Positions 48,570-57,871 of a stretch of DNA of 64,000 nucleotides are shown one piece after another. The stretch comes from Hungatella sp. (GTDB lineage: Bacteria; Bacillota; Clostridia; Lachnospirales; Lachnospiraceae), in contig JAAWBS010000021.1 in assembly GCA_022792815.1 (NCBI GenBank), positions 1-64,000 of the forward strand, written 5' to 3'. A program made the translations under genes and the position numbers. The notes beneath the pieces were generated by a model, which was given only the letters and a program-made list of their open reading frames with translations, searched no databases and had not been told where the DNA came from. Numbering within the stretch: position 1 is the stretch's first letter; every line of letters starts with the position of its first letter.

Positions 48570-49580
48570 TTATTCCTGCTCTTTATTTGGCAGCAGGCTC
48601 TCCTTTATTTTTTCATTGATCTGCTGTTCCTTAAAGGTGACGCACTGGAGGATGGAATTGCAGACTTCATTGGCTTTGGAGTTGCCGTGAGTCTTTACCA
48701 CCAGTCCCTTTAAGCCCAGCAGCGGCGCCCCTCCGTACTGGCTGGCGTCGAAGGCCTTCATGGTCTCCTTCAGGGCCGGCTTCACCAAAAGAGCCCCGAT
48801 CTTGCTTTTCAGGTTTGTCATCATGCCCTGCTTCACCATGCCGATCAGGGTGGATCCCACTCCCTCATAGAGCTTTAAGATCACATTGCCCACAAAGGCT
48901 TCGCTGACGATGACATCCGCTCCTCCGTGGGGGATCTCCCTGGCCTCGATGCTCCCGATGAAGTTTAAGTCCTCACAGGCTTTCAGGAGCGGAAACGTCT
49001 CCTTCACCAGGGCGTTGCCCTTCTCCTCCTCGGCGCCGATGTTGACGATGGCGACCCTTGGCTTCTTAATGCCTATGACATGCTCCATGTAAATAGAACC
49101 CATCCTGGCAAATTGTACCAGATGAGAAGGCCTGGCGTCAACATTGGCCCCGCAGTCAATGAGAAGGGACGCCCCTCTCTCCGTGGGGATCAGAGGGGCC
49201 AGAGGCGGTCTCTCCACTCCCCGTATCCTTCCCACGATAACCTGACCTCCGACCAGGATGGCGCCGGAACTGCCTGCCGACACGAAGGCGTCCGCCTCCT
49301 GCCTCTTGACCAGATTCATCCCCACCACGATGGAGGAATCCTTTTTTTTGCGGATGGCGTTCACCGGCGGCTCCTCTGTCTCGATCACCTCAGAGGCATG
49401 GACGATGGTCAGCCGGTCAGCCGGGTAGGCGTAGGAAGACAGCTCCTGCCGGATCCTGTCCTCCTGGCCCACCAGGATCACATGGACCTGCTCTTTCTTT
49501 TTCAGCGCCTCCACGGCCCCTTTGACCATCTCTGCCGGAGCATAATCCCCACCCATAGCATCTACTGCTATCTTTATCAT
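48570..49580 (-). CDS. plsX: Phosphate acyltransferase PlsX
   Basis: PlsX converts acyl-ACP to acyl-phosphate for phospholipid synthesis. The 336-aa protein has the N-terminal [20 protein letters not shown], the [22 protein letters not shown] loop in two parts, [12 protein letters not shown] and the C-terminal [18 protein letters not shown] 49580 has AAGGAG eight bases upstream. It heads the plsX-acpP-(rnc-smc-ftsY) series; fapR and fab genes are absent here. Confidence 0.97.
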
Positions 49581-49630
49581 ATTGTGATTCTCCTTTCGGC
49601 CCCGCTGGGGCCTGAGATAATCTATTACAT

Positions 49631-49659
49631 AATATACTAGATATCCTTTTATAAATCAA
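49631..49659 (-). promoter_or_regulatory. Promoter of the plsX-acpP cluster
   Basis: TTGATT (49654-49659) and TATATT (49631-49636) on the minus strand with a 17-base spacer, about 50 bases before plsX. I see no clear FapR-type box. Confidence 0.6.
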
Positions 49660-49726
49660 TACTGTTTTTTCACAGGTTACAGGAATTTTTACCGGTTGAT
49701 TTTTTACCCTTTTTTCAAATGAAATG

Positions 49727-49782
49727 CAGCCATGACAGGTTCTGTTTTCCTTTTTCCTGAAAAACCGAACCTGTCATGGCTG
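49727..49782. terminator. 16-bp perfect inverted repeat after the VWA gene
   Basis: CAGCCATGACAGGTTC (49727-49742) and GAACCTGTCATGGCTG (49767-49782) are exact complements around a 24-base centre that itself can pair (GGTTTTTC with GAAAAC). It starts six bases past the VWA stop and most likely ends the five-gene operon; the tail is only weakly U-rich. Confidence 0.65.
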
Positions 49783-49787
49783 TATCA

Positions 49788-50978
49788 TCACCCTTTGGCC
49801 ATCTCCCCCAGATCCTGCCCCTTGAGGGCTCTCTCCAGAAGTTCCGGCAGTTTCTGTGGATTGCAGGCAAAACAGGGAATCCCCATGCGTGCAACCTTCT
49901 CCGCCATCTGGGCGTCATAGTAAGGTTTCCCTCCGTCGGCGATGGCCAGGAGGCAGACCACCGTAACCCCGCTTTCTTTCAGCTCTCCCAGACGTCTCAC
50001 CAGAGCCGCCCGGTTTCCTCCTTCCATCAGGTCGCTGACCAGGAAAAACAGAGTCTTCCTGGGATTCTCCACGAACCGGCTGCAGTAGGCCACCGACTTG
50101 TCAATATCCGTGCCTCCCCCCAGCTGAAATCCGAACAGAAGGTCCACCGGATCGTCGCATTTCTCCGTCAGATCCACCACCTGGGTGTCAAAGGCCACGA
50201 TCCTGGTCTTCACCGACGCCATGCTGGCCAGGATGCAGCTGATGATGGACGAATAGATCACCGATTCTCCCATGGAACCGCTCTGGTCCACATCCAGGAT
50301 AATGGTGTACTTGTTGGCCGCCGTGGTGGAGGTGCGGTCAAAGAAATAGTAGTGCTCCGGGATGATCTTTTTCAGCTCCGGCCTGTAGTTCTTGATCCCT
50401 CTCCTTATGGTGGTGGGAAAATCAAGGGCCGAGGCAGATGGGATGGGGGAATGCTGCCTCTTGTTCACCGCAGCCGTCACCGCCCGTTTGATATCGCTCT
50501 CCAGCAGCTTGTTGATCTCCTCCACGATCTTCTTCATAAACTCCCGGACGCTCTCCTTGCTCCTCTTGGGCACCTGGTCCTTGAGGAGCAGGATGGTGGC
50601 GGCCAGGTTCATGTCCGGCTCCAGGTTCTCCAGAAGCTCCGGCTCAAAGATCAGCTGCTTTAAGCCGCACCGCTCCATGGCATCTGCCTGGACGATCTTC
50701 ACCAGATCCTTGTCAAAAAGGGTCCGCACGTCCCCCAGCCACCTGGTGATCTGGGGATTGGATGGGCCGTGGCCCGCCCCTCTCCCTCCCGGTCCAAACC
50801 CGCCCTGGGAGGGGTTGTTGTAGATACAGGCCAGAGCCTGGTCCATGAGCCACTGCTCCTGGGAGAGAACAAGCCCCTCTCCCCCGTTCATCTTGTCAAA
50901 CCCTTTCTCGCCGTCCTGACCCAGGATCAGCCGCCACCTGGTCATACGCTCCTTTAATTTCTCGTCAGATGTCTCCAA
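49788..50978 (-). CDS. VWA-domain (CoxE/YehP-like) protein of a MoxR-VWA system
   Basis: About 396 residues. The N-terminal part is helical (TRWRLILG, then a Gly/Pro-rich stretch). The C-terminal half is a von Willebrand A domain with an intact MIDAS: DVDQSGSMGES (DxSxS), the Thr in FDTQVVDLT and the Asp in GGGTDIDKSVAY. VWA proteins paired with MoxR AAA+ ATPases bind metal and act as adaptors between ATPase and target. A TTG at 50978 has GGAGG nine bases upstream and overlaps the DUF5682 gene by 14 bases; ATG 50945 (AAAGGAG three bases upstream) is the alternative. Last gene of the operon, equivalent of E. coli yehP. Confidence 0.88.
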   Translation of the reverse strand: METSDEKLKERMTRWRLILGQDGEKGFDKMNGGEGLVLSQEQWLMDQALACIYNNPSQGGFGPGGRGAGHGPSNPQITRWLGDVRTLFDKDLVKIVQADAMERCGLKQLIFEPELLENLEPDMNLAATILLLKDQVPKRSKESVREFMKKIVEEINKLLESDIKRAVTAAVNKRQHSPIPSASALDFPTTIRRGIKNYRPELKKIIPEHYYFFDRTSTTAANKYTIILDVDQSGSMGESVIYSSIISCILASMASVKTRIVAFDTQVVDLTEKCDDPVDLLFGFQLGGGTDIDKSVAYCSRFVENPRKTLFFLVSDLMEGGNRAALVRRLGELKESGVTVVCLLAIADGGKPYYDAQMAEKVARMGIPCFACNPQKLPELLERALKGQDLGEMAKG

Positions 50979-53346
50979 AATCGAAATCCTCCAGTCCTTC
51001 CAGCATCTCCATGGCATCCTCTGTCAGAGTCCCGCCGAGAACCTCGCTGACCTGCTCCGGGTTCACCTGCCAGATCTCCCCCAGATTCTCCGCGATCTGA
51101 TCCTTCTCCATGGAAGAAAAGTCCGCAAAGGCCCTGCGCAGAAACAGGAGGGCCCTCTTAAACTCTTCCTCATCCAGGGTATCCAGATATCCGCTCAGCT
51201 TCTCCCACAGGGTGAGGCGGGCAATGAGGGCGTAATGGTTCCTGGAAGACAGACCGGCAAACCATCCGGCTCCCAGCTCCGCAGGGATCCCCTTAGAAAG
51301 GCGGCGCTCCACCTCCCGCCCCAGCTCCTCGCTGTCCATGATCCCCTGCTCTAAGAGGATCGAGGCCGCCAGCCCGGAAAGACGGGTGTTTAGGTCGTCC
51401 CTGGCTGCGATCTGTCCCAGAACCTTGAGGAAACGGTCCCTGTCCAGAAAATCATGGGCCACACTGACTGTCTGAAGGCGGTTTACGGCCTCTGCCAGAG
51501 TCCCTGCCGCCCCGTCGTCGCAGGCGCACTCTCCCGGCAGCATCAGACAGGCCCGCAGAAACAGCTGGGACAAGATGGGCATCAGAGGCTTTCGGTCAAG
51601 CCTCCGGATATCCCCGTACTGAATCACCACCGACAGACTTCCTGCCGTGTCCGCGATCTCTGTCAGCGTCGCCCCGTCCACCGCCATGGCCTGGAGGTGG
51701 TCCAGAGCCGCCGACACCATCCCGGGCATGCCGCAGTAAAAAGCCTCCTCCACGATCCCGGCCACGCCGGCGATGCCCTGGCTCTCATCTAACCGGTTCT
51801 TCAGCTCAAAGGCCGCCGCCTGCTTCACCGTATCCCCTTTTAACACCGCCTCCACGATCTGGATCTCCGCCTCCGGGGTCCACCTTAAGCTCCACTGCTC
51901 CGCCCAGGTGGCATTGTCCTGGCGGACTCCCTGGATCTGGGCAAACCGGATGCCGAGGACCCTGAGCCGGTGAAGGAAAAAAGACCGCTCCAGGTCGAGA
52001 AAGGCCGCTTTCTTCGTCTTTACCCTCAAGTTTTCCCTTAAGTCCAGGGAAAGCTCCGAGGCGGTGACGGATTTATATTTTTCCAGTTTCAGTTCCTTTA
52101 ATTTGTGATAGAAATCGCTCTGAATGGAGGTCTGACTCACCCCCTGGGGCAGGCTTCCGATCCGGGTGCCGATCTCCGTGTCGGCCGCCGCCAGGGCCAG
52201 CTCGGAAAATGATCCGTGTCCCATACAAGTGACGGCGGCATCCCGCAGATCCTTAAGAGTGGGGATCCTGCCGTCGTGAAGCCCGGCCAGGGCCTTTGCC
52301 AGTCTTGCCGCCTCCAGCACCTCCGCCGAGGACGTCACTCCGCCGTGATTTCTCTGAAAAGATGCCAGGCCTGTCAGATACCGCCTGGCCCCGAAGTCCG
52401 CCTCTCCCCTCAGAAAGCCCTGCCACAGATATTCGTAGTAGGCCGGAGCCCGGTTCCCCGCCCCGTAGCCGGAATGCTCCGACAGCCGGTAGTAGGAGTA
52501 GGGCATCAGAGTCTTCATGGAGGCCAGCCTGGGGAGCGCCTTCCACTCCCTGTCCGTCATGGCCGGGGCGTCTCCCAGGATTCCCTCCACATGGTAGGCC
52601 CCGGTGATGACCGCGATCTTCTCAGGCCGGACGCCCTCTCTCCCCGCCTCCTGGACCTGCCTCCTCATGAAGGCTTCCCGCACCAGATTCTCCTCACGGT
52701 CCCTGGGGCCTCTGGATTCCAGCTGCCGCAGACGGCGGCCAAACTCCTTGGCCCCCTCCTCGTAGCCGGCCTCGTCCCCGGCCTGCTCCATGGTCCGCTC
52801 CCAGAAGGTCTCATGGTCCCTGTCCTGACACTGTCTGTCCAGAGCCTGGTACACGTCAAAAGCTTCCTCACCAGATCCGTCTTCCCGCCCGGATCCGGTT
52901 TCTGCCCCGTTGTCCGGCTCCCTGCGTGGATCTGCCTCCGGTTCCTTCCCGGCTTCCGCTTCTCCGCTCTGTCCCGGCATAAGCGACGGATCCCGGTTTT
53001 GTCCGGCCTCCCCGGCGGCTCTCATGCCGAGAAACACGTCCGAGGGCAGATCACAGAACCGGCACCTGCGCCCGTGTTCCCTGGCCCACAAAAGAGCCTG
53101 ATACTCCGGCGAATATTCGGCAAAGGGATAGAGGATGGTCCGGATGGGAAGTTCCTTTGTGTAGGCCATGACTGCCACCGGCGGCTTCACCTCCTCCGCC
53201 CCCAAATCCTCCATCAGGTCCGTGAAATCTGCCGGTCCCTCGATGAGAACCAGCTCCGGGTCCGTCCGGTCCAGAAACTCCCTGACATAGTAGGCTCCGG
53301 CGGGAGACAGGTGGCGAATTCCAAATACAAAAGGCCGTGTCTCCAT
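50965..53346 (-). CDS. DUF5682-family protein with TraB/EreA-like motifs
   Basis: A 793-aa cytoplasmic protein. It starts METRPFVFGIRHLSPAG and shows GIRH (9-12), LVLIEGP (Glu36) and TGAYHVEGI (His252). These resemble the GxxH, EG and GAxH motifs of the TIKI/TraB/erythromycin-esterase-like fold, in which paired His and Glu residues are catalytic; the resemblance is my reading, not a proven relation. An acidic low-complexity insert (about 112-162) interrupts the first domain. The remaining 500 residues are mainly helical, ending in the acidic tail EGLEDFDFGDI. Its ATG overlaps the AAA+ gene stop by one base. In this cluster type DUF5682 (E. coli YehM equivalent) is always beside the AAA+ gene, so it may be the effector handled by the ATPase. 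Confidence 0.83.
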   Translation of the reverse strand: METRPFVFGIRHLSPAGAYYVREFLDRTDPELVLIEGPADFTDLMEDLGAEEVKPPVAVMAYTKELPIRTILYPFAEYSPEYQALLWAREHGRRCRFCDLPSDVFLGMRAAGEAGQNRDPSLMPGQSGEAEAGKEPEADPRREPDNGAETGSGREDGSGEEAFDVYQALDRQCQDRDHETFWERTMEQAGDEAGYEEGAKEFGRRLRQLESRGPRDREENLVREAFMRRQVQEAGREGVRPEKIAVITGAYHVEGILGDAPAMTDREWKALPRLASMKTLMPYSYYRLSEHSGYGAGNRAPAYYEYLWQGFLRGEADFGARRYLTGLASFQRNHGGVTSSAEVLEAARLAKALAGLHDGRIPTLKDLRDAAVTCMGHGSFSELALAAADTEIGTRIGSLPQGVSQTSIQSDFYHKLKELKLEKYKSVTASELSLDLRENLRVKTKKAAFLDLERSFFLHRLRVLGIRFAQIQGVRQDNATWAEQWSLRWTPEAEIQIVEAVLKGDTVKQAAAFELKNRLDESQGIAGVAGIVEEAFYCGMPGMVSAALDHLQAMAVDGATLTEIADTAGSLSVVIQYGDIRRLDRKPLMPILSQLFLRACLMLPGECACDDGAAGTLAEAVNRLQTVSVAHDFLDRDRFLKVLGQIAARDDLNTRLSGLAASILLEQGIMDSEELGREVERRLSKGIPAELGAGWFAGLSSRNHYALIARLTLWEKLSGYLDTLDEEEFKRALLFLRRAFADFSSMEKDQIAENLGEIWQVNPEQVSEVLGGTLTEDAMEMLEGLEDFDFGDI

Positions 53347-54434
53347 CAATGATTTAACTCCTTGCACTCTTTGTAGAGGGAAAGCCATCTGGAGCCTCTC
53401 TTTTTCATGATGTTCTCCAGGTACTCCTCCCAAACCTTCTGATCCTTCTCGTCCTCCTTCACCACAGCCCCCTGAAGGCCCGCGGCCAGGTCATAGTCCG
53501 TAACGTCCCCGCTGCCGAAGCTGCCTGCCAAAGCCATGCTGTTGGCTAAAAGGGAGATGGCCTCCGCCGTGGACAGCACTCCTGTGGTGGTCTTTATCTT
53601 CTGTTTGCCGTCCAGGGTAGCCCCCGACCTCAGCTCCCGGAAAATGGTGCACACCTTCTCCACCACCTCCGCCTCCGGAAGTCTGGCGTTGAGATCCAGG
53701 CTCTCCGACAGCTGGCCGATTCTGGTCTTCACGATCTCCATCTCCGCCTCCAGGCTCTCCGGAGCCGGCAGCACCACGATGTTGAACCGCCGCTTCAAGG
53801 CCGCCGACATCTCATTGACTCCCTTGTCCCGGGTGTTGGCCGTGGCGATGACGGAAAATCCTTTTTTGGCCGGAACCTCGATGCCAAGCTCCGGCACGGA
53901 GATCCGCTTCTCCGACAAGATGGAGATCAGGGCATCCTGGACCTCCGAGGCGCACCTGGAGATCTCCTCCACCCTGGCGATGGCTCCCTCCTCCATGGCC
54001 CGGTACACGGGGCTGGGAATCATGGCTTCCCTGGACGGCCCGCCGGCAATCAGCATGGCGTAGTTCCAGGAGTACTTGATCTGCTCCTCCGTGGTCCCGG
54101 CCGTCCCCTGGATCACCCTGGTGGAATTGCCGTTGATGGCAGCCGTTAAATGCTCCGACAGCCAGGATTTGGCCGTCCCCGGCTCCCCGATGAGAAGAAG
54201 AGCCCGGTCCGTCACCAGAGTGGAGATGGCGATCTCCACCAGCCGCTCATGGCCGATGTACTTGGGGGTGATCTCCACCCCGCCGCTCTCTCCCCCGCAG
54301 ATGTAGGTGAGCACCGATTTCGGCGACATGCGCCAGCCTGTGGGCACCGGGTACTTCTCGTTGGCGATCAGTGCGTCAATCTCTCTCTGAAACAGCTGCT
54401 CCGCAGGCAGCCTCTGGACATCATTCTTACTCAT
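53346..54434 (-). CDS. MoxR-family AAA+ ATPase (YehL type)
   Basis: A 362-aa ATPase. The AAA+ core starts at about residue 55 with GHERLVEIAISTL, Walker A GEPGTAKS (Lys89), sensor and pore region YAMLIAGGPSREAMIPSPVYR, Walker B IARVEEIS (Glu in place of the usual Asp), the second-region SEVQDALISILSEKRI and sensor 1 FSVIATANTRDKG. A lid domain follows (LKRRFNIVVLP). MoxR ATPases act as chaperone-like remodelers together with VWA partners. ATG 54434 has GGAGGA about six bases upstream; a longer reading to 54506 overlaps the previous gene. Third gene of the five-gene operon. Confidence 0.93.
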   Translation of the reverse strand: MSKNDVQRLPAEQLFQREIDALIANEKYPVPTGWRMSPKSVLTYICGGESGGVEITPKYIGHERLVEIAISTLVTDRALLLIGEPGTAKSWLSEHLTAAINGNSTRVIQGTAGTTEEQIKYSWNYAMLIAGGPSREAMIPSPVYRAMEEGAIARVEEISRCASEVQDALISILSEKRISVPELGIEVPAKKGFSVIATANTRDKGVNEMSAALKRRFNIVVLPAPESLEAEMEIVKTRIGQLSESLDLNARLPEAEVVEKVCTIFRELRSGATLDGKQKIKTTTGVLSTAEAISLLANSMALAGSFGSGDVTDYDLAAGLQGAVVKEDEKDQKVWEEYLENIMKKRGSRWLSLYKECKELNH

Positions 54435-54460
54435 GGCTTCCTCCATATTTATCATCTTAT

Positions 54461-56341
54461 TTACAAATCTCCGGCCAAAACTCCGCTTCTCAACTTCCCG
54501 CACCACATCTCCAGAATCCCCACTCCGATCCTGGCCTTCTTTCCATAAGTCTTTATGAGGCTCTCCAGCTCCTCGGCCAGTTCCTCGCTGCTCATGGGCA
54601 GTTCCGTGAGCAGCTCCCTGATCTCATAGGTGGCGATGTGGTCATGTTTCTTGCCCGTGAGAGCCAGAAGTCCCCTGTAATCCTTCCAGCCGCATCGCTT
54701 CAGCATGCGCACATCCGCGGCCACAGTCCCCCGAAGCCGGGCCCCCTGGTAAAAATACTTCCCGTAATCTTCCTTCAGCTCTTCCATGTCAGGCCGGAAA
54801 AGACCTGCCACCATGGCGTCATATCCGTTGTCAAAGCTGCTTCTCACCTGTTTCCGGAGCCGGGAATCAAACCGGTTTTTCGACTGCAACAGGAGAGGAT
54901 ACCACCGGGGGTCAAAGCCCTCCTCCAGCCTGGAAGCCACGGTCCGAAACCTGACGGGAGAATCCCAGGCTTCCCGGTACGCCACATAGGCGCCCTCCTT
55001 CTCCTCATATCTTACCCGCATGAGAACCTTGTAGATCCCCATGGGATCTCTCTTGCCGCCGCCCTTATTTTTTACCTGATCCAAAAGACCTTCCGGGCTT
55101 AAATAGGAATGGAACCGGTCATAGACCTCATGAGATCCTTTGGTCAGCAGATGAACCCAGAACACCGGCTGGAGGAACTGGTCTCCATAAGCCTCATACA
55201 GCTCCTCCGCCGTCCGGCACAGACTCTCAGGCTGCTCTTCCAGGAGAGAATCCCACAAAAGCTCCGCCGTCTCCTTGGGTATCACTCGATAGAGCCGCTT
55301 GTAGCAGGTGCACATCCGGGGAGACGACTTTCTGAGCGCCGCTCTTTGCAGATCATACAACATCTGGCGGTCCTCATTTTTCAGGTCTTTGAAAGGAATT
55401 CCTGACTGGTCAAAGGCATCCAGCCATCTCTCCAGATGCTCTGCGATCAGATCCGAGGCCCACAGCGTCCGGGAGTCCTGCAGATAATCCGCTGCCTTTC
55501 CAGGCTTCTTCTCCATCTGTTTTCTCCAGAACTCTCTGGCCCCCTGCCCGTTCATATGAGTCAGAGCGCAGAGAGCCGCCTCCTTCCCCTTGCCCTTCTC
55601 TGATTTCACCAGCTCCAGCAAAAGCTCCTCGTTGTCCTCCCTGTGCCGCAGCGCCCGGATAAGCTCCTCCTTCACCTCCTTGGAGGCTCCAGAAAGAGCC
55701 GCCACATAGAAATCATTTTCCTCTCCCCCGGCAATGGCGGATATCAGCTCCGCTCTCTTTGCCATATCCCGCTTCCCGCCAGGGTCGAATCCCTGTTTCA
55801 ACAGGGGGAGGATCTCCCGGCCCTCCAAAAAGAGCCACCCGGCCACCATGTCGGCCAGTTCCCCATAACTGTCCCCTAAAGCCTTCACCATGAGATTCTT
55901 GATCCTGTAATCCTCAAAAATTTCCGGCTTCTCCTCATGAGCGTCACGGATCACTGCGTACCTGCCGCTTCCCGTTCCCCGGAACGCTTCCAGCACCGGC
56001 GCCATCTGGCTGTAGGGAATCTTGACGCAGAGCCTGCCTTTCCTGTCTGTGCCGGAAATCTGCCGCCACTCCCCTTCTTTCAAAAGCCCTCCCTGGGTAC
56101 AAAGCACCGCGTCCAGAAGAGCCAGAGTGTCAAGAACCGCCGCCGTCCTGTGTTCGCACTCCGGGGCCACGGCCTTCTGGGCCATCTGACAGATCTTTCC
56201 AAACACCGGAGAAGCCTTGGCCAGAGGAGCCATCTGCTCCACAGCCCTCTTAAGCCGAAAATCCTCCTGTATCAGCCCGGTTCCCGCCACCGCAGCCGTC
56301 TTAAACCGCTCACGCAACTCATACACCACACTCAGATTCAT
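54461..56341 (-). CDS. Alpha-solenoid (HEAT-like) protein of the MoxR-VWA operon
   Basis: A 626-aa helical protein without signal peptide or membrane segment. Repeated helical pairs with Ala/Leu spacing (KEELIRALRHREDNEELLLELV, split at the turn; KGKEAALCALTHMNGQ) suggest HEAT-like repeats, mainly about 200-290 and 340-460. It begins MNLSVVYELRERFKTAAV. In actinobacterial clusters of the same make-up the gene at this place is annotated DUF5691; whether this one belongs there needs a profile search. It lies 39 bases after the SWIM gene and 26 bases before the AAA+ gene. Probably a scaffold or target-recognition subunit. Confidence 0.75.
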   Translation of the reverse strand: MNLSVVYELRERFKTAAVAGTGLIQEDFRLKRAVEQMAPLAKASPVFGKICQMAQKAVAPECEHRTAAVLDTLALLDAVLCTQGGLLKEGEWRQISGTDRKGRLCVKIPYSQMAPVLEAFRGTGSGRYAVIRDAHEEKPEIFEDYRIKNLMVKALGDSYGELADMVAGWLFLEGREILPLLKQGFDPGGKRDMAKRAELISAIAGGEENDFYVAALSGASKEVKEELIRALRHREDNEELLLELVKSEKGKGKEAALCALTHMNGQGAREFWRKQMEKKPGKAADYLQDSRTLWASDLIAEHLERWLDAFDQSGIPFKDLKNEDRQMLYDLQRAALRKSSPRMCTCYKRLYRVIPKETAELLWDSLLEEQPESLCRTAEELYEAYGDQFLQPVFWVHLLTKGSHEVYDRFHSYLSPEGLLDQVKNKGGGKRDPMGIYKVLMRVRYEEKEGAYVAYREAWDSPVRFRTVASRLEEGFDPRWYPLLLQSKNRFDSRLRKQVRSSFDNGYDAMVAGLFRPDMEELKEDYGKYFYQGARLRGTVAADVRMLKRCGWKDYRGLLALTGKKHDHIATYEIRELLTELPMSSEELAEELESLIKTYGKKARIGVGILEMWCGKLRSGVLAGDL

Positions 56342-56380
56342 AATCCGCTCCTTTTTATCACTATAACAGGTGGGAATCCT

Positions 56381-57871
56381 CTAGTACAACAGTCTGTAGA
56401 TTCCGTCTCTCTTGATCAGACTGCAGGGATAAATCCCCATCTGCCGGTCTTGGGGATCATAGTAGGCCAGTCCGAACAGCACCCCGTCTCGGTAGAGAGA
56501 GCCGTCAGGAAGCAAGGGGATCATGGAGACCGTGTCTTCCATGCCTTCGGGGCAGCCCAGCCTGATTCGGTTTTGGCCGTGATCCCTCATGGCATAGACC
56601 GCCTTTTTCCCTGTCCCGGCGGACTCTCCATCCCCGTCCTCACCGTCGCCGGTCTCCACCATGCCGATCTCCTCATAGGCTGTCAGCACGGGACAGTACC
56701 CCTCTGACAACGTATTTTTCAGCTCATTTTTCACCGCCTTCATGGCGGCGGGAAGATCCGCCCAGGCCTTTTTTACGATCTCCTCATAGACCGTCTCCGG
56801 TATCTCCTCGTAGGAGGCGGACTCCCAGCGCACCCTTTTGTCCACGGCGCCCGGATAATAAAACAGGACCGGGATCCGCAGAAGCCCGAAACAGGAATCT
56901 TCCTGCTTTACGTACTTCAGCGCCTTCACCGGGCGGTAATTACAGGTGTGGACGATCTGCCCGTCGTCTACATCCACCCAGTATCCCTTGTCGATATACT
57001 CTTTTCTGGCCGGGTCGAACGTAACCTGGAAAGCCAGCTGTACCAGGCGGGCCCCTTCCTTCTTAAGGCCCAGGTCATTTAACTGTTCCAGCTTCCAGAT
57101 TCCCCCCAGCTCCTCATAGAGCTCATCGTCGTCTGCATCAGGGCTGTCGCTGTCCAGTTTGTCCTGAAGGTAACTCTGAGCCTTTTTCTCCAACGCCCGA
57201 AGTTTTTTGAGAATCTCCACCCCGTTTTCATAATGGCGGGGATCCTGGTCCTTCTGACAGGCCTCCATCTCCAGGATCAGCCGGTTCAGATATGTCAGAG
57301 GCCCGGGCAGATAGTAATCACCCAGCTGCTTTGCCAGATCCCGGTAGGTCTTTAAGGACACGCTTCCCATAGCCGCCAGGCCGCCTTTCACCAGACCGTC
57401 TGTCAGCTGCCGCAAAAGCTCTAAGCCCTCCAGCTGTTTTTTGATCTTCTTTGTCCTGGCCGCCCTGGAGGCTTTCCGGCTCTTCTCCGTGGCCGGCTTC
57501 TTTTCCCCGGCCTGCTTTTTGGCCTCCCTGGCCTCCTTTTTCTCCCGCTTGTCCAGGATGTCCTGGGGGATCTCTGTGATGGCAAAGGCCTTCCCCGCCG
57601 CCATCTCGTAGAGCAGTCCCAGGCTGTGCTTGCACGGGAACTGCCGGCTGGGACAGGTACATCGGAACACCGGATGCACCTCGTCTATGTAATCCGCGGA
57701 TACCACGTAATTGTTCTTTCCGCTGCCCTTACACTCCCCCATGTAAAAGCTGTCGTCCTCCGACCGTTTCAGGGACACAAATCCGCCCCCTGTTGAAATT
57801 TTTCTGCCGTTGGCCGCCGCGTTGGCGTTGGGCGCCAGAGCGGCGATCTCCTGCTCCTTTACTGTTCTCAT
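56381..57871 (-). CDS. SWIM zinc-finger protein (YehQ-like), first gene of the MoxR-VWA operon
   Basis: A 496-aa protein. The SWIM finger is near the N-terminus: Cys71, Cys73, Cys80 and His82 in FRCTCPSRQFPCKHS. A basic Lys/Ala-rich coil (EKKEAREAKKQAGEKK region) links it to a helical part and a C-terminal beta-rich domain (GYWVDVDDGQIVHTCNYRP; YPCSLIKRDGIYRLL). SWIM fingers bind nucleic acid or protein. E. coli yehQ has the same finger and neighbourhood. ATG 57871 follows GGAGAGG. The promoter at 58040-58068 leaves a leader of about 160 bases; 57872-58083 holds no other gene that I can support. Confidence 0.88.
   Translation of the reverse strand: MRTVKEQEIAALAPNANAAANGRKISTGGGFVSLKRSEDDSFYMGECKGSGKNNYVVSADYIDEVHPVFRCTCPSRQFPCKHSLGLLYEMAAGKAFAITEIPQDILDKREKKEAREAKKQAGEKKPATEKSRKASRAARTKKIKKQLEGLELLRQLTDGLVKGGLAAMGSVSLKTYRDLAKQLGDYYLPGPLTYLNRLILEMEACQKDQDPRHYENGVEILKKLRALEKKAQSYLQDKLDSDSPDADDDELYEELGGIWKLEQLNDLGLKKEGARLVQLAFQVTFDPARKEYIDKGYWVDVDDGQIVHTCNYRPVKALKYVKQEDSCFGLLRIPVLFYYPGAVDKRVRWESASYEEIPETVYEEIVKKAWADLPAAMKAVKNELKNTLSEGYCPVLTAYEEIGMVETGDGEDGDGESAGTGKKAVYAMRDHGQNRIRLGCPEGMEDTVSMIPLLPDGSLYRDGVLFGLAYYDPQDRQMGIYPCSLIKRDGIYRLLY

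Follow-up and report, generated by a model that had tools for sequence, protein, structure and literature searches.

What does a bacterial operon do that joins a MoxR-type AAA+ ATPase and a VWA protein to three further proteins, one of them of the family DUF5682? The question is raised by a stretch of 64,000 nucleotides from Hungatella sp. (assembly GCA_022792815.1, contig JAAWBS010000021.1, positions 1 to 64,000), hereafter the window, in which an earlier note had described five co-directional, tightly spaced or overlapping genes. That description held. All five are encoded by the minus strand, are transcribed in the order SWIM, SOL, MoxR, DUF5682 and VWA, and are separated by 39, 26, -1 and 19 nt, with one base common to the MoxR stop and the DUF5682 start. 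Profile and model comparisons place the N-terminal domain of the DUF5682 protein among TIKI/TraB/EreA-like domains, and we see an even chance that the operon encodes an ATP-driven remodelling machine controlling a TraB/TIKI-like hydrolase. The features are as follows.

56381..57871, minus strand: SWIM zinc-finger protein, 496 aa; ribosome-binding site caggagagg
54461..56341, minus strand: SOL, probable alpha-solenoid scaffold, 626 aa; no Pfam family
53346..54434, minus strand: YehL-class MoxR AAA+ ATPase, 362 aa; AAA_5, 2e-40; ribosome-binding site present
50965..53346, minus strand: DUF5682 protein, 793 aa; PF18934, 1.5e-152
49788..50945, minus strand: VWA (CoxE-like) protein, 385 aa; VWA_CoxE, 5.5e-41
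49695..49790, minus strand: hairpin at the VWA stop, possible terminator; -40.6 kcal/mol, z -8.93

Gene starts were re-set by the ribosome-binding site, and a purine-rich site precedes the chosen start of each of the five genes.

In the predicted model, the DUF5682 protein consists of a TIKI/TraB-like N-terminal domain (residues ~1-300), a helical region (~300-770) and a low-confidence tail ending in EDFDFGDI. When the N-terminal domain was compared with the TIKI/TraB profile, hhalign gave 96.1%, against a maximum of 4.4% in 200 column shuffles, and fold comparison of the domain model returned the fold of the TIKI/TraB/EreA superfamily. Residues H12, E36, R223 and H252 align with TraB positions and are invariant in all 20 aligned DUF5682 proteins. 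The earlier note's suggestion of a putative hydrolase is plausible on these profile and fold comparisons. The likeness to the TIKI/TraB/PrgY and EreA/ChaN superfamily (EreC, RRSP, HopBA1) lies in the fold and in the positions of the His, Glu, Arg and His residues, whereas the long added helical region and the tie to an AAA+/VWA pair set DUF5682 apart. Unlike RRSP, it also lacks the Glu two residues before the first His, a position occupied by Ile or Val in 20/20 proteins. A sequence search of the PDB with the DUF5682 profile gave a designed fibre as its sole match (E 0.013), and Foldseek and VIA-align searches with the full-length model returned mainly helical-repeat and other unrelated proteins, none with E < 1e-3. 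DUF5682 was not found in the literature searched, outside which lay most subscription papers and all bioRxiv preprints.

How general is the association of this protein with its neighbours? DUF5682 loci were collected from a genome scan, from surveys of the phylum and of the family to which the window belongs, from plasmid-collection records, from one phage-collection record and from E. coli, and were searched with profiles built in this analysis. The census is not random: its seeds were DUF5682 matches, mostly from the window's family, and records filed as plasmids supplied most of the cross-phylum loci. L070 and L071 duplicated other loci and were removed; sub-stretches that were short, and repeats (L001, L018-L028, L054-L057), were left uncounted. 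Among the 64 distinct loci, MoxR lies ahead of DUF5682 in 62 and VWA is present in 63. The two loci without MoxR are on contigs that begin at the DUF5682 gene, and L059 has no VWA gene in the 9 kb after DUF5682. By sequence comparison, MoxR, DUF5682 and VWA form a near-constant, co-inherited trio, co-inheritance being here a tree correlation without a species-tree baseline.

The loci fall into 37 of type I, defined as SWIM - scaffold - MoxR - DUF5682 - VWA, 20 of type II and 7 untyped. Six of the untyped loci have a contig that ends upstream; the seventh is Streptomyces L034, in which the annotation gives DUF4132 upstream and a weak SWIM match lies downstream. SWIM is present in 36 of the 37 type I loci (the contig of L005 ends upstream), and relatives as well as Fusobacterium carry all five genes arranged as in the window. 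SOL takes the scaffold position in 31 type I loci, and DUF5691 does so in four by its own profile and in Nocardia by Pfam; L012 has no scaffold gene. The SWIM-DUF5691-MoxR-DUF5682-VWA operons (Rhizobium, Deinococcus, Methylosinus, Hymenobacter, Nocardia) resemble the window operon in order and in having a scaffold slot, but this slot holds DUF5691, without detectable similarity to SOL and fused to SWIM in two of them. A YehQ-like SWIM protein is present in 20/20 type II loci and DUF4132 in 17/20. Type II forms a separate clade, with support of 0.945 in the DUF5682 tree, 0.70 in the VWA tree and, once L034 was added, 1.0 in the MoxR tree; genomes G570, G637 and G669 hold both types. DUF5682 and VWA are a single polypeptide in L034, as are SWIM and DUF5691 in Hymenobacter L032 and Nocardia L041. 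These natural fusions suggest two sub-assemblies, one a core of enzyme, VWA and MoxR, the other an arm of SWIM and scaffold.

Some relatives carry additional genes between those of the operon (AAA-ATPase_like/PDDEXK_9, DUF6560, kinase-like, lipoprotein-like and a reversed glycosidase), which we take as insertions. The AAA-ATPase_like/PDDEXK_9 gene lies between SOL and MoxR in two close relatives, at L002:7252-8970, where it was assigned by Pfam, and at L009:7245-8972, where the gene looks alike; the window has no such gene. In the Methylosinus plasmid operon the VWA gene is broken into three frames (L033:11172-12400).

The window ATPase has Walker A GEPGTAKS at position 83 and a Walker B ending in Glu-Glu (E156 E157), a pair found in 61/61 aligned MoxR proteins. 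With its AAA+ core motifs intact, it is 40% identical to E. coli YehL versus 19% to RavA, the sole outside sequence in this comparison. On this comparison it is assigned to the YehL subfamily, as the earlier note had it; this branch is one of seven MoxR subfamilies (PMC3893208). The protein also passes the bpMoxR Pfam cut-off as a secondary match (33.1 vs 27). The VWA protein carries a metal ion-dependent adhesion site (MIDAS) made up of D220-x-S222-x-S224, T279 and D305; the first Asp, both Ser and the final Asp are present in 62/62 aligned VWA proteins and the Thr in 61/62.

The SWIM finger reads C71-x-C73-x6-C80-x-H82, and its residues are found in 30/31 aligned homologues. The window protein is assigned to the SWIM zinc-finger proteins on this motif, in agreement with the earlier note, although its Pfam match (8.3e-4, 19.3 bits) falls 0.3 bits short of the cut-off of 19.6. 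SOL gave no match in the Pfam scan. HEAT_2 was matched in 4/7 other SOL proteins scanned, always below cut-off (best 5.3e-5). SOL is therefore a probable, predicted alpha-solenoid scaffold; the HEAT-like solenoid of the earlier note is plausible, but no match rises over the cut-off. Membership of SOL in DUF5691 was rejected (PF18944 over cut-off in 0/18 type I genomes; hhalign 0.43%), as was homology to DUF4132 (hhalign 1.1%), and DUF5691 against DUF4132 gave 0.2%; these profile comparisons rest on only 3 DUF5691 and 6 DUF4132 rows. Three families without detectable similarity between them thus fill the scaffold slot. Alignments of SWIM with YehQ gave a weak match (39%). L014:6018-8866 and L069:12991-17023 each hold a tandem pair of SOL-like open frames in place of a single one.

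The C-terminus of DUF5682 varies with the scaffold. In SOL-type loci, an acidic-aromatic tail with FDF is present in 30/31, L072 having FSF, whereas the FDF tail is absent from 4/4 DUF5691-type loci and from the 19 type II loci whose C-terminus could be read; type II locus L077 is broken, its DUF5682 end was not seen, and it was left out of this count. In a 17-sequence alignment the tail residues are invariant and the stretch directly before them is mostly variable, while model confidence in the tail is low. The tail may serve as a peptide by which DUF5682 docks onto the solenoid or the VWA protein. L012 retains the FDF tail without a SOL gene beside MoxR, and the correlation of tail with SOL is confounded by relatedness, which could explain part of it.

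A sister version of the system exists in E. coli, where the locus comprises yehI (DUF4132), yehL, yehM, yehP and yehQ. The earlier note had stated that the same set occurs there, which is correct for MoxR, DUF5682 and VWA, homologous and in the same order, and for the presence of a SWIM protein and a single transcription direction. The solenoid, however, is replaced by DUF4132, the two-finger YehQ lies at the opposite end, and DUF5682 lacks the FDF tail; the profile search found no SOL or DUF5691 gene in the yeh stretch. yehM is present in 5284/5426 complete E. coli genomes, 5166 of them with at least 80% of the gene, and yehI in 5283. Titles and abstract openings of papers found under the yeh gene names give no function for these genes. 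Beside yehI lies the pseudogene yehH (L029:5300-8267), another DUF4132 homologue, which is broken in K-12. An E. coli plasmid (L037, NZ_CP103756.1) carries a yehI-mlrA segment of chromosomal appearance, bracketed by two IS26 transposase genes and beside a beta-lactamase gene. In the literature, the metG/DUF4132/yeh region of E. coli is described as the insertion site of a resistance transposon.

How might these parts work together? NorQ/NorD and RavA/ViaA share with the window operon a MoxR ATPase with a VWA partner; the operon differs from them in having three more proteins, a likely enzyme encoded within the operon and, from RavA, a Walker B of Glu-Glu versus Asp-Glu. In NorQ/NorD, the MIDAS residues are required for target activity and dispensable for MoxR-VWA contact (PMC9976466), and NorQ acts on the target by twisting NorD (PMC13036017). 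Transferring this principle, we infer that a MoxR hexamer would hold the VWA protein, whose MIDAS would grip DUF5682 at an acidic site, in the way NorD holds its target, and that ATP hydrolysis would twist the VWA protein so that the active site of DUF5682 is opened, matured or switched. SWIM and the solenoid would serve as a recognition arm that sets when, and on what, the hydrolase acts; this arm would be exchangeable (SOL, DUF5691 or DUF4132), and the FDF tail of SOL-type systems may have its docking site in the solenoid or the VWA protein. The substrate would most likely be a protein or a small ester or amide inside the cell, and the role a maintained stress or quality-control function, not that of an arms-race weapon. 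A bolder and tentative version, which we consider doubtful as a whole, would make the system a new ATP-gated hydrolase or protease: a MoxR/VWA motor mechanically switching a TIKI/TraB-fold enzyme without threading substrate into a chamber, with a plug-in SWIM and scaffold arm and, in the SOL subtype, an FDF docking peptide.

Could the operon instead be a weapon against invaders, as the earlier note had considered under a role in conflict? SWIM and the solenoid would then sense foreign nucleic acid and MoxR would release DUF5682 as a toxic effector. MoxR-vWA ternary conflict systems with the same MoxR and VWA core have been proposed (Kaur et al. 2020, PMC7159879), and the passing of the bpMoxR cut-off would fit. 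The Pfam matches of the five proteins include no beta-propeller or FtsH (VMAP and iSTAND profiles were not run), no varying effector was seen, and DUF5682 is invariable where the effectors described by Kaur et al. are varied; the main text of that paper names none of SWIM, DUF5682 or Yeh. Distribution offers something to this view: DUF5682 is patchy in the window's family (28/299 genomes, its own included), the same-genus genome G511 has no DUF5682, and some copies are on plasmid records, some of those chromosome-sized. Its near-universal presence in E. coli speaks against it, as do the dN/dS values of all five genes against five relatives (0.02-0.29, SOL highest in every comparison; dS is near saturation versus L004). 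In the two relatives that allow the comparison, the constraint on MoxR and VWA about equals that on plsX and ftsY. PADLOC matched the window proteins only weakly, and in the ATPase alone (best E 0.0045). The flank scans covered 125 of 155 flanking proteins, at most five per locus, in 32 loci, PADLOC at 1e-15 and without a control set. The 79 type I flanking proteins gave 62 PADLOC families, but most of the 25 listed are models for a single REase_I and a single Specificity_I protein; mad3 (3 proteins), mad5 and PbeA are also among them. The 46 type II flanking proteins gave 7 families, with mad3 (2), PDC-S01, WYL and AriA. In favour of defence count the REase_I and Specificity_I matches and a type I restriction set near the Iodobacter plasmid locus. 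Among the Pfam matches listed (25 of 41 and 25 of 105 families), the flanks are mostly housekeeping. A defence-island context is rejected as a general rule across the loci scanned; phage carriage was likewise rejected, two IMG/VR scans confirming no relative. A 14-kb 'Bacteriophage sp.' record (L039, MT835988.1), marked unverified and possibly bacterial DNA, holds a MoxR-DUF5682-VWA trio. The dN/dS values, patchiness, flanks and E. coli prevalence together argue for a maintained, horizontally movable cellular function over typical defence, and we regard phage defence as unlikely.

Equally unlikely, in our estimate, is a chaperone that matures an outside enzyme, on the pattern of NorQD/CoxDE. 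MoxR/VWA would then insert a metal or cofactor, DUF5682, SWIM and the scaffold would be target-binding adaptors and the TraB-like site would be non-catalytic. The window VWA is of the CoxE family, and ChaN-like members of the TIKI/TraB/EreA fold bind haem. The characterised MoxR/VWA pairs mature metalloenzymes. Yet no metalloenzyme gene recurs beside the operon among the flank families listed, each occurring in at most three proteins, and the residues at catalytic positions are invariant in the 20 aligned DUF5682 proteins. A machine for DNA damage or DNA-linked stress, with SWIM and DUF4132/WGR-type proteins as its nucleic-acid side, appears less probable still. SWIM fingers can bind DNA or protein. 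According to PMC8533742, D. radiodurans depleted of DdrO shows a rise in a DUF4132 gene (DRA0166) and in a WGR gene, and MolR counts among the members of the LexA regulon. But type I systems like the window's contain no DUF4132, and the SMC and RNase III genes found close to the window operon adjoin it in only 3 of 48 loci checked.

The immediate surroundings bear on expression and history. The operon is flanked by a GDSL-lipase gene on one side and plsX on the other. The single promoter of the earlier note was not recovered: a sigma-70-like scan ran at chance (2 sites vs 2.2 expected), with none on the minus strand before SWIM. Its terminator hairpin fared better: none of 200 shuffles equalled the stability of the hairpin between VWA and plsX (z -8.9), but the U tail is weak, and a terminator is likely but not certain. 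plsX, named by Pfam and search, adjoins the operon in 3/48 loci checked (L002, L009, L015), many of the 48 being short. In G511, genes resembling ackA and yceD are contiguous with a short stretch at the rpmF place and with plsX (ackA, yceD and rpmF were named by eye). The source genome instead has its ackA-to-rpmF stretch on a different contig, with unrelated genes after it, which places the operon at a rearrangement point (window 48570-50945; L095; L097).

With DUF5682 assigned to the TIKI/TraB/EreA fold and its key residues named, an operon without a known role becomes a testable enzyme hypothesis, in which a previously unplaced enzyme-like protein would stand at the centre of the machine. 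The sister version in nearly every E. coli makes the idea testable in K-12. If true, it would mean that MoxR/VWA chemistry reaches from cofactor insertion to hydrolase gating.
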